Shown here: positions 5,233-15,208 of the stretch, piece after piece
How positions within the stretch are numbered: position 1 is the first letter of the stretch
Layout: every line of letters starts with the position of its first letter
From: Halanaerobium hydrogeniformans
GTDB lineage: Bacteria > Bacillota > Halanaerobiia > Halanaerobiales > Halanaerobiaceae
DNA: 64,000 bases
Reading direction: 5' to 3'
Assembly (NCBI RefSeq): GCF_000166415.1
Contig: NC_014654.1
Location: 930,001-994,000 of the forward strand
Made by a program: the position numbers and the translations under genes
The notes under the pieces: model-generated
The model's input: the letters and a program-made list of their open reading frames with translations, nothing else
Told to the model about the DNA's origin: nothing
Databases searched by the model: none

Positions 5233-7035
5233 TTGCAAATAAACTATCTTGATGGTAAACGTCTCTATTATGCCGTTTTATCAGGCTCTAGAGAGGTAAT
5301 TAAAAATAGAAGAGAATTAAATGAAACCAATGTATTCCCTGTGGCAGATGGTGATACAGGTACCAATCTCAGCCAGACCCTTAATGTTGTAAAAACAGAA
5401 TCAGTTAAAGATGATTCCTTAAATGTTACCTTAAATTCAATGGGAGATGCAGCTTTAAAAGGTGCAATTGGAAATTCAGGCATTATTTTTGCTCAATTTA
5501 TAAATGGACTTAAAAAGAATTTAGCCGATAAAGCCAGTACAGATTTAAACGAATTTGCCGCTGCAGTAGAAAATGCTGTTGAATACACTTATCAGGGGAT
5601 GAGTAACCCTGTTGAAGGTACCATTTTAACTGTTATGAAAGACTGGGCTGGAGCTTTAAAAGAATTTAAATATATAACAGATGATTTTGCAGAAGCAATG
5701 GAAAAATCGCTTGAGACAGCTTTTAAATCACTTCAGCAGACCAAAGAAAAACTGCAGGTATTAAAAGATGCCGATGTGGTTGACTCTGGTGCTCAGGCTT
5801 TTGTTTATTTTTTAGAGGGAATTGTAGATTTCATTAAAAGTGGTAATATAAAAGAAATTAGCAGTTCTCAGATAGAAAATATTGAAAGAATAAGTGAAAA
5901 AGAGCTTAGCCTGGAAGAAGAAATTAATCATCGTTACTGTACTGAAGCCTATCTTGAAAACCTCAGCATCTCTATTGATCAGTTGAGAGAGGAAATTTCA
6001 TATTTAGGAGATTCACTGATTGTTGCTGGAGATAAAGAAAAACTGAGAGTTCATATTCATACAAATAATCCAGAAGAACTATTTGCCGACCTTGATCAAC
6101 TGGCAGATATTATTGATCAAAAAGCAGATGATATGCTGCTTCAATATCAGGTAAAGTATAATAAAAATTCCGAGACTGCAATTTTAACTGACTCTATAGC
6201 AGATTTGCCGCGAGAATTTATCGACAAACATCAGATTCATTTATTACCTTTGAATATTTTAATAGATGGAACAAATTATCTTGATAAACTAACTTTAGAT
6301 AGTGATAAGTTTTTTGAAATGCTTGAAAAAGCAGAAGAATATCCAAGTTCAGCTCAACCAGCTATTAAAACAATAGAAAATAAGCTTGCCTATTTAGCAG
6401 ATCATTATCAGTCTATTATTGTAATTACTGTTTCTCAGAAAATGAGTGGTACCTATGATAATGTTGCAAAAGCAGCTGAAAAGATTAGAACAGAAAATGA
6501 GAATTTAAAAATAGATGTTATCGATTCCAGAAGCAATTCCGGTGCTCAGGGACTATTAGTTATGGAAGCAGCTGAGCAGTTGAGTAGTGGTAAAAGTTAT
6601 CAAGAAACAGTAGCACATTTAGAAAAAATCAGAAAAGATCTATATATATATGTTAGTGTGGATGATTTTAAATATATGGTCAAAGGTGGAAGGGTCAGCC
6701 CACTTAAGGGTAAGATTGCTAATTTCTTAAATTTAAAACCTATTATTTCCATTGATCGAAAAGGTAATGGAATAGCTCTTGCCAAGGCTTTCAGCAAAAA
6801 AGGTAATTTTAAGAAAATAAAAGCTATTTTAAAAGAACATCAAGAAAATAGAGGAATAAAAAGATATGCAATTGTTCACGGTGATGACCGAAAAAGGGCG
6901 GAAATGTTTGCCGAAAGCTTTGAAGAGTTATTGGGCCAGAAAGCAGATTTTGTTGAAAATATTTCTCCGATAGTTGCAATTAATGCGGGAAGGGGTAGTA
7001 CAGCGGTTGCTGTTTTGTTGAGAGAGGAAGGATAA
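5233..7035 (+). CDS. FakA-FakB fusion: DhaL/DAK2 kinase domain fused to DegV fatty-acid-binding domain
   Basis: The 600-residue protein joins two partners of fatty acid kinase. The N-terminal DhaL/FakA domain (about 1-200) has the nucleotide-metal motif ADGDTGTN. A FakA middle domain follows (about 225-305, with RVHIHT). Residues from about 312 form a DegV/FakB fold: TDSIADLP, the acyl-binding SAQPA and SGTYDN motifs, and [19 protein letters not shown]. FakA phosphorylates a fatty acid held by FakB for entry into phospholipid synthesis. Fusion would dedicate one binding protein to the kinase. The start is TTG behind an AGGAGGG site, with a possible -10 (TATAAT) at 5180. The next gene follows after one base. 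Confidence 0.85.
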
Positions 7036-7884: not shown

Positions 7885-9054
7885 TCAATTTAAGATTGAA
7901 TTATAAACTTCTAATAATTCGTCAATTACTCTGGCCCAGGAAAAATTATTTAGGGCATAATCTGCTGCATATTCTCCTTTTTCATTTTTATCATCTTCTT
8001 TGATGGCAGTAATGATCTTAGCGGCTAAATCATCAGAATTATCCATCTCAAATAAGCGTCCGACCTTTTGATTTATAAAATCGGGTAGTCCACCAGCCTT
8101 TGAAGCAATGACCGGAGTTCCACAGGCAAGAGCTTCTAATGCAACAAGACCAAAGGGTTCAACTCGAGAAGGAACTATAGATAGGTCTGCACTGCTGTAA
8201 AAAGCAGGTAATTCACTTTGATTTAAATTACCAAGAAAATAAATATTTTCTAAGTTTAATCTTTTTACCTGTTCTTTAAGCTGAGCTGATAATTCTCCAC
8301 TACCGATTATCAAAGTTGTGATACCGGGAAACTCTTTTTCGTATTTTTGAGCTGCTTCAATTAAGAGATCTATCCCTTTAAAATCGGTTAGCTTGCCGAC
8401 AAAATTAATTAAATAAGGAGGATCTTCTTTAATATCTGGCAGATACTTCTGCAGTAATTTAAGCCGATTAAGCTCTAATGGTTTAAATAATTCATCATCA
8501 ACCCCATTTAAAATTTTTCTTAACTTCTTTTTATCTGGAGAATAATATTTTTCCACCTCCTGGTGAACCTGATCAGAGATGGTGATTATTTTTTCAGCAT
8601 TTCTAGCTCCCTCTAAAGCAAATTTTCGATAGCGTTCATCTTTTTTAAAACCTTTAATATCTGTACCATGGGCTGTAATTATATAAGGTAGATTCGTACT
8701 TTGGGCAGCATAGGGAGCAATCCAGAGATGTTGAGCGTGGATTAGATCTGCCTCAAATTCTTCTGCTTCTTTTTTTATTATTTCTTCAAAACTATTCAGA
8801 TAGGAATCTATTTCAGATTTACTTAAATTATAAAATTGATTATTGCTTTTAGGATGGGTAGTAAAACAGGGAAAATCATCGTGAACTAAGGTTTCAACAG
8901 GAAATTGATATTGATTATTTTCAGCTTTTTGATTATCCACTGCAATTACTTTTACTTTATGTCCTTTATCTAAGAGACGCTGGGCTATATTTTTAGTATA
9001 GATTCCACTACCTGATCCCTCAAGTGGAAAATGATTAACCAATAAAATTCTCAT
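7885..9054 (-). CDS. Glycosyltransferase family 4 (GT-B fold)
   Basis: The 389-residue protein has the two Rossmann-like halves of GT4 enzymes. The N-terminal acceptor domain carries GSGSGIYTKN near residue 13. The C-terminal sugar-nucleotide domain has NFVGKLTDFKGIDLLIEA and the catalytic EPFGLVALEALACGTPV box (E-x7-E). There is no signal peptide, so it acts in the cytoplasm or at the inner membrane face. Family members make glycolipids, sucrose-type osmolytes or surface glycans, and the acceptor cannot be read from sequence. It is the last gene of a leftward run after gnd, but a terminator lies between them, so it may have its own promoter. Confidence 0.88.
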   Translation of the reverse strand: MRILLVNHFPLEGSGSGIYTKNIAQRLLDKGHKVKVIAVDNQKAENNQYQFPVETLVHDDFPCFTTHPKSNNQFYNLSKSEIDSYLNSFEEIIKKEAEEFEADLIHAQHLWIAPYAAQSTNLPYIITAHGTDIKGFKKDERYRKFALEGARNAEKIITISDQVHQEVEKYYSPDKKKLRKILNGVDDELFKPLELNRLKLLQKYLPDIKEDPPYLINFVGKLTDFKGIDLLIEAAQKYEKEFPGITTLIIGSGELSAQLKEQVKRLNLENIYFLGNLNQSELPAFYSSADLSIVPSRVEPFGLVALEALACGTPVIASKAGGLPDFINQKVGRLFEMDNSDDLAAKIITAIKEDDKNEKGEYAADYALNNFSWARVIDELLEVYNSILN

Positions 9055-14478: not shown

Positions 14479-14507
14479 TTGACATAAAATTCTTGATAAT
14501 ATATAAT
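14479..14507 (+). promoter_or_regulatory. Consensus sigma-A promoter of trpP
   Basis: TTGACA (14479-14484) and TATAAT (14502-14507) are both perfect and separated by 17 bp. The predicted start near 14514 gives a leader of about 53 bases that begins just before the triplet array. Confidence 0.85.
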
Positions 14508-14519
14508 ATAAACAATTAA

Positions 14520-14585
14520 TAGTTGAGTTTAGTTTAGAAAAAATATAAGAGGAGAGATGAGTTGAGATGAGAACAAGAGATTTAG
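14520..14585 (+). promoter_or_regulatory. Probable TRAP-binding site over the trpP ribosome site and start
   Basis: Eleven GAG/TAG triplets lie in the transcript. Four (14520, 14525, 14530, 14535) and then five (14549, 14554, 14559, 14564, 14569) repeat at exactly five-base spacing, and two more occur at 14577 and 14583. TRAP (MtrB) binds eleven (G/U)AG triplets spaced by two or three bases, and in B. subtilis it blocks trpP translation this way. Here the array covers the Shine-Dalgarno (GAGGAG) and the ATG, so tryptophan-bound TRAP would stop initiation. Confidence 0.75.
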
Positions 14586-15094
14586 CACAGGCGGCTTTGT
14601 TGGTGGCAATTGCAATGATTTTGAGGACTTTAACACCCCCGTTGGTATTGGGAATGAAACCTGATGTAACCCTGGCAATGATGTTTATTATCCTGATAAT
14701 TAAAAGAGATATTAAATTAGGATTTTTGGTTGCTTTGTCTACCGGGTTATTTACAGCTTTAACCACTACTTTTCCCGGGGGTCAGGTAGCAAATATTGTA
14801 GACAAATTACTTACTTTTATAATTGTATATAATTTGATACCTGTTATTACAAAGTTTGCCTCAAAAAGAATTGCCGCAGGGATTACAACTGCAGTAGGAA
14901 CAATTATAAGTGGAAGCTTATTTTTGACTATTGCTTCTTTATTAGTTTCTTTACCGGCTCCATTTGTGGTTTTATTTACTACAGTGGTTTTACCGGCAGC
15001 AGTGATTAATACAGTAACAGCAGTTGTACTCTTTAGTGTGGTTAACTTTGCAATGGACATCGAATATAATCAGGCTGAAAATAAAGCCGTGTAA
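14567..15094 (+). CDS. trpP: Tryptophan transporter TrpP
   Basis: The 175-residue membrane protein has about five helices and matches Bacillus TrpP (YhaG). Diagnostic segments are PPLVLGMKPDVTLAMMFIIL near residue 22 and LTTTFPGGQVANIVDK near 65. It imports tryptophan across the inner membrane. ATG at 14567 lies within the GAG/TAG triplet array, with GAGGAG 13 bases upstream. Transcription stops at a hairpin 20 bases after the gene. Regulation by tryptophan through TRAP is strongly suggested by the leader. Confidence 0.9.
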   Translation: MRTRDLAQAALLVAIAMILRTLTPPLVLGMKPDVTLAMMFIILIIKRDIKLGFLVALSTGLFTALTTTFPGGQVANIVDKLLTFIIVYNLIPVITKFASKRIAAGITTAVGTIISGSLFLTIASLLVSLPAPFVVLFTTVVLPAAVINTVTAVVLFSVVNFAMDIEYNQAENKAV

Positions 15095-15114: not shown

Positions 15115-15143
15115 GGGTCCTTTTAATAAAGGGCTCTTTTTTT
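15115..15143 (+). terminator. Intrinsic terminator of trpP
   Basis: The stem GGGTCCTTT (15115-15123) pairs with AAAGGGCTC (15128-15136), including two G-U pairs. The loop is TAAT and seven T residues follow. Confidence 0.85.
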
Positions 15144-15150
15144 ATAAATA

Positions 15151-15208
15151 TAGTTGCATCTGCAACTAATCTATGTTATTATTGATTAAACAAGTTGCAG
15201 CTGCAACT
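15151..15208 (+). promoter_or_regulatory. MarR promoter bracketed by two palindromic operators
   Basis: Operator 1 is TAGTTGCATCTGCAACTA (15151-15168). Operator 2 is AGTTGCAGCTGCAACT (15193-15208), a perfect palindrome. Their centres are 41 bp apart, about four helical turns. The promoter has -35 TTGCAT (15154-15159) inside operator 1, a 17-bp spacer and -10 TATTAT (15177-15182). Operator 2 covers the first transcribed bases. Bound dimers would block both entry and escape of polymerase. Confidence 0.8.

Follow-up and report, generated by a model that had tools for sequence, protein, structure and literature searches.

The array of GAG and TAG triplets at positions 14520-14571 of the window (the whole 64-kb stretch of DNA analysed here, taken from a genome of 2,613,117 bases, 2.61 Mb) is very probably (about 0.93) a site for TRAP (MtrB) in the leader of the trpP mRNA, at which tryptophan-loaded TRAP would block ribosome binding. 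Binding, its dependence on tryptophan, the size of the ring and the direction of control are read by analogy with trpP of Bacillus subtilis. On the same grounds, the import of tryptophan would very probably be shut off when the cell has enough of it.

Layout of the trpP leader

The gene trpP (14567..15094, forward strand) encodes a tryptophan transporter of 175 residues that matches the Pfam profile PF17099 (TrpP) with an E-value of 1.6e-43 (148.9 bits, for a cut-off of 27.2). Upstream lies a sigma-A type promoter, TTGACA-17-TATAAT (14479..14507, forward strand), identical to the consensus at 12 out of 12 positions. Most relatives have a TTGACA-type promoter at the same place. The position of the promoter predicts a transcript start near 14514, so that the array begins at around +7; an earlier note on this DNA had placed it about six bases into the transcript. 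An intrinsic terminator follows the gene (15115..15144, forward strand), and trpP is therefore probably monocistronic.

Direct reading of the forward strand gives two blocks of triplets. The 5' block (14520..14537) is TAG-GAG-TAG-TAG, with triplets starting at 14520, 14525, 14530 and 14535. The 3' block (14549..14571) consists of five GAG, at 14549, 14554, 14559, 14564 and 14569. An A/U-rich gap of 11 nt (14538..14548) separates them, and all spacers within blocks are of 2 nt, for a TRAP-site criterion of 2-3 nt. The Shine-Dalgarno sequence AGGAG (14550-14554) lies inside the 3' block, whose last GAG overlaps the ATG at 14567. The block thus covers both the ribosome site and the start codon, as had been claimed. 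The earlier note counted nine triplets at exact five-base steps and two more inside the gene, eleven in all. The nine are in register (4 + 5). The other two, GAG at 14577 and TAG at 14583 (14577..14585, forward strand), are present inside trpP but out of register: the GAG is absent from most relatives, and the TAG falls in the conserved codons for Leu6-Ala7. They are probably incidental and are not needed to explain the site. TRAP binding sites comprise 9-11 (G/U)AG triplets (PMC4347634), and the nine to eleven found here fall in this range.

In the mechanism we propose, plentiful tryptophan would load the TRAP ring, and the loaded ring would take up the unstructured leader through its GAG/UAG triplets. 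By covering the Shine-Dalgarno sequence and the start codon it would exclude the 30S subunit, and TrpP would not be made; at low tryptophan the ring would release the leader and TrpP would be made. The step of 14 nt across the gap is about three steps of 5 nt, a periodicity that suggests two skipped subunits. Four triplets, about two skipped subunits and five triplets would then make 11 sites, just filling the ring and matching its size in B. subtilis. Rings of 12 subunits exist in B. halodurans (PMC3184956).

TRAP might instead bind the leader and work mainly through early transcription termination or RNA turnover. It does act on transcription at trp leaders, and in B. subtilis it can cause termination independently of the attenuator (PMC3913778). 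Yet we found no terminator between the promoter and the trpP start, and the most constant part of the array is the 3' block, on the Shine-Dalgarno sequence and the start codon, which makes this alternative very unlikely. The leader is weakly folded, less structured than its shuffles (z = +1.65).

The array exceeds chance expectation

We scored triplet arrays on both strands of the whole 64-kb window. The trpP array scored 8.85, against 3.35 for the next best. The maximum in 20 simulated 64-kb sequences was 4.75. Among 2000 Markov versions of the local sequence the best score was 7.05, below that of the trpP array, which none of 300 dinucleotide shuffles of the leader reached either. A pattern of five triplets is weak when taken alone, as backward controls also match it, and we therefore relied on full-array scoring and on conservation. 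Since GAG reads identically backwards, the reversed-sequence control was uninformative and KAC was used in its place.

It is hard to credit that a purine-rich ribosome site and an A/T-rich leader simply happen to contain many GAG/TAG words. Such words come easily here, as GAG is natural in Shine-Dalgarno sequences, the genome is A/T-rich, and a control pattern of four triplets, read backwards, matches eight sites of the genome. However, the array score lies beyond every shuffle and simulation. Furthermore, the 5' block, distant from the ribosome site, retains its triplets across genomes despite altered spacers, and the array is missing in genomes without mtrB.

TRAP in Halanaerobium and its order

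The search for mtrB, proposed in the earlier note as a check that could have refuted the reading, returned one gene in the genome of the window (PF02081, E = 7e-37; above the cut-off of the NCBIfam equivalog NF009724). We identified mtrB in all 12 Halanaerobium genomes, with two matches in one fragmented assembly, and in 32 of the 38 genomes of the order. The nearest solved structures among the PDB matches of Halanaerobium MtrB are all TRAP. The TRAP residues that contact the triplets are Phe32, Glu36, Lys37, Lys56 and Arg58 in B. subtilis numbering (PMC4854314, PMC7430163). All five are present in the TRAP of the genome of the window, and they are invariant across 31 sequences of the order, apart from one Arg58. 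At two positions near the tryptophan pocket the residues of Halanaerobium TRAP are Asn51 and Val52, those of Geobacillus TRAP His and Thr, which counts against the proposed reading.

We found no convincing gene for anti-TRAP (rtpA). The only matches to PF15777 were weak, in frames of 340-386 aa, and appear to reflect the DnaJ zinc-finger domain rather than anti-TRAP. Anti-TRAP is not required for TRAP control itself; on rtpA, the genome departs from the TRAP/anti-TRAP system of B. subtilis. Within L032 (4032-10755), mtrB sits between dnaE and the genes for phosphofructokinase and pyruvate kinase. This setting differs from that of Bacillus, where mtrB is part of a folE-mtrB operon.

Conservation of the array and natural controls

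The assignment of this DNA to the Halanaerobiales was right, and its relatives are Halanaerobium, salt-loving anaerobes. The 12 Halanaerobium genomes contain 16 trpP genes in total, and in every genome the two blocks, complete or in part, are seen over trpP. The comparison of leaders came out as anticipated for a TRAP site, with triplets kept while spacers and the choice of GAG or TAG vary. The core of the 3' block, GAG-at-GAG-tt-GAG-ATGAG, is nearly fixed in Halanaerobium; other genera of the order have it too, with exchanges between GAG and TAG. Changes in this block are often from GAG to TAG. In most trpP genes the 5' block has three to six triplets, and its spacers and triplet identities vary: it reads TAG-GAG-GAG-TAG in the closest relative (G003), and other relatives have mixtures of TAG and GAG with different spacers. 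Together with the presence of mtrB, this conservation supports the B. subtilis design of translation control that had been suggested. The uneven strength of the site counts against it: regularly spaced triplets are fewer in G001 (the weakest trpP array), in the first trpP copy of G009 and in family f3. Tandem trpP copies occur in four genomes, each copy with its own array.

Two situations serve as natural controls. In family f7, mtrB was detectable in none of the five genomes, and the three trpP genes of this family lack the array (scores 2.0-2.25). Scores range from 4.0 to 8.85 within Halanaerobium, are mostly around 4 or more in members of the order with mtrB, and are 1.0 for two clostridial trpP genes. 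The high-quality members of the order without mtrB all belong to one family, so that the difference represents one evolutionary event rather than three observations. The second control is G004 (one contig, 2,309,262 bases), where we found no match to trpE or trpB and which nevertheless retains mtrB and the trpP array. Of the targets seen, trpP is the only one for which TRAP would remain useful in this genome after the loss of trpE and trpB; others are possible.

The AGGA in the site might suit a different RNA-binding regulator; CsrA, for example, prefers GGA in ribosome sites. But the remaining triplets lack GGA, their 5-nt steps fit TRAP rather than CsrA, and the presence of the array tracks that of mtrB. 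Use of the site by such a regulator is thus exceedingly improbable, and TRAP remains our reading of it.

Comparison of the trpP-type loci (L004, L005, L006, L007, L014, L015, L016 and L017) revealed two divergent types of trpP, LRTLTPP-like and LHAFFPP-like, found in tandem in four species. The genome of the window has only the LRTLTPP-like type, with Arg where the LHAFFPP-like type and TrpP of Bacillaceae have His. The two types may differ in substrate. Downstream of trpP, two TTGCAnnTGCAA palindromes (window 15151-15168 and 15193-15208) precede a MarR-family gene and a gene for an MMPL/RND-like exporter, and are probably MarR operators. Palindromes of this type are also found near trpP in relatives.

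Other candidate targets

We searched the genome for four triplets at 5-nt steps, a pattern by which irregularly spaced targets may be missed. It occurs in six places, four of which are trp genes: trpP, the trp operon leader, the start of trpD, a stand-alone second trpB, the gap between nadC and nadA2, and one site antisense to cobalamin genes. The design of the trpP site thus recurs elsewhere in the genome, at the trp operon and at further genes, which the earlier note, in suggesting arrays before trp biosynthesis genes, had understated.

In the leader of the trp operon, most genomes have an array of 9 to 12 triplets (read by eye in G006 and G008), with an intrinsic terminator after it. When we folded the leader with the array blocked, the terminator formed in 10 of 11 genomes; the free RNA often pairs otherwise. 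In the trp leader of G009, the search we used found no first terminator. The sequence suggests an attenuator-like terminator and the attenuator logic of B. subtilis. A second intrinsic terminator lies directly before trpE in the trp operon of the genome of the window (cGGTCAGGCTT..AAGCTTTGGCCGTTTTTT; L031, minus strand, ~10730-10690). It is visible in 11 out of 11 genomes with paired changes, e.g., GGTCAGG/CTGACC in G001 and GGCCGG/CCGGTC in G009. The operon also includes trpG, and a cluster of triplets over the ribosome site of trpD (L031, minus strand, ~8564-8620) that recurs in nine relatives, those with a located trpD start.

The stand-alone second trpB, 59% identical to the trpB of the operon, bears an array across the ribosome site and the start (L060 ~1476-1520, i.e., G000:C1 ~1398869-1398913). 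Ten genomes, the genome of the window and nine relatives, have this array at the start of the gene. Its lower score, and its overlap with coding sequence rich in purines, make it less certain. The gene nadA2, for a second quinolinate synthase, ends a cluster of a symporter gene, nadA, nadB and nadC. Both genomes that carry nadA2 have an array of seven triplets before it (L155 ~5390-5435 in the genome of the window, G000; L043 in G003). This array stops upstream of the Shine-Dalgarno sequence, and TRAP would have to obstruct the ribosome sterically or act in another way.

The remaining place is a run of five TAG triplets at 5-nt steps (L041 ~1502-1524), antisense between two cobalamin-pathway genes, which is probably due to chance. 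At the trp, mtrB, trpP and nadA loci no Rfam family reached the gathering score, which excludes a T-box or another listed RNA there at that score.

We tentatively suggest, at somewhat less than even odds, that the TRAP regulon is wider here than in Bacillus. It might include the trp leader, trpP, the stand-alone trpB, trpD within its operon and, in two species, nadA2, which would tie NAD synthesis to tryptophan, with TRAP surviving in G004 for the control of uptake.

Comparison with known systems

These results, natural controls among them, support an intact TRAP switch of translation in an order distant from Bacillus and add new candidate targets of TRAP. The absence of the array without mtrB, and the retention of TRAP without trpE and trpB, make the order of gain and loss of a textbook RNA regulator testable. 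A literature search, with most subscription papers outside its reach, found no link between TRAP and Halanaerobium, and we make no claim of priority.

The mechanism itself is already known from Bacillus; the novelty lies in the extra candidate targets and in the spread within Halanaerobiales. TRAP is described as controlling translation at the leader of B. subtilis trpP, or yhaG (Yakhnin et al. 2004; Sarsero et al. 2000, as cited in PMC4347634). The Halanaerobium site resembles it in gene family, triplets, position over the ribosome site and start codon, and presence of TRAP in the genome. It differs in its two blocks at exact 5-nt steps with a gap of 11 nt, in its distant order, and in that anti-TRAP was not found. 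The trp leader, with its array followed by an intrinsic terminator, resembles the trp attenuator of B. subtilis (PMC3913778, PMC4027176), whereas the second conserved terminator before trpE, trpG in the operon and the cluster at trpD set this operon apart. Finally, B. subtilis trpG (pabA) is a translation target of TRAP that likewise has its array over the ribosome site, but here the comparable clusters are found instead at trpD, the second trpB and the second nadA.
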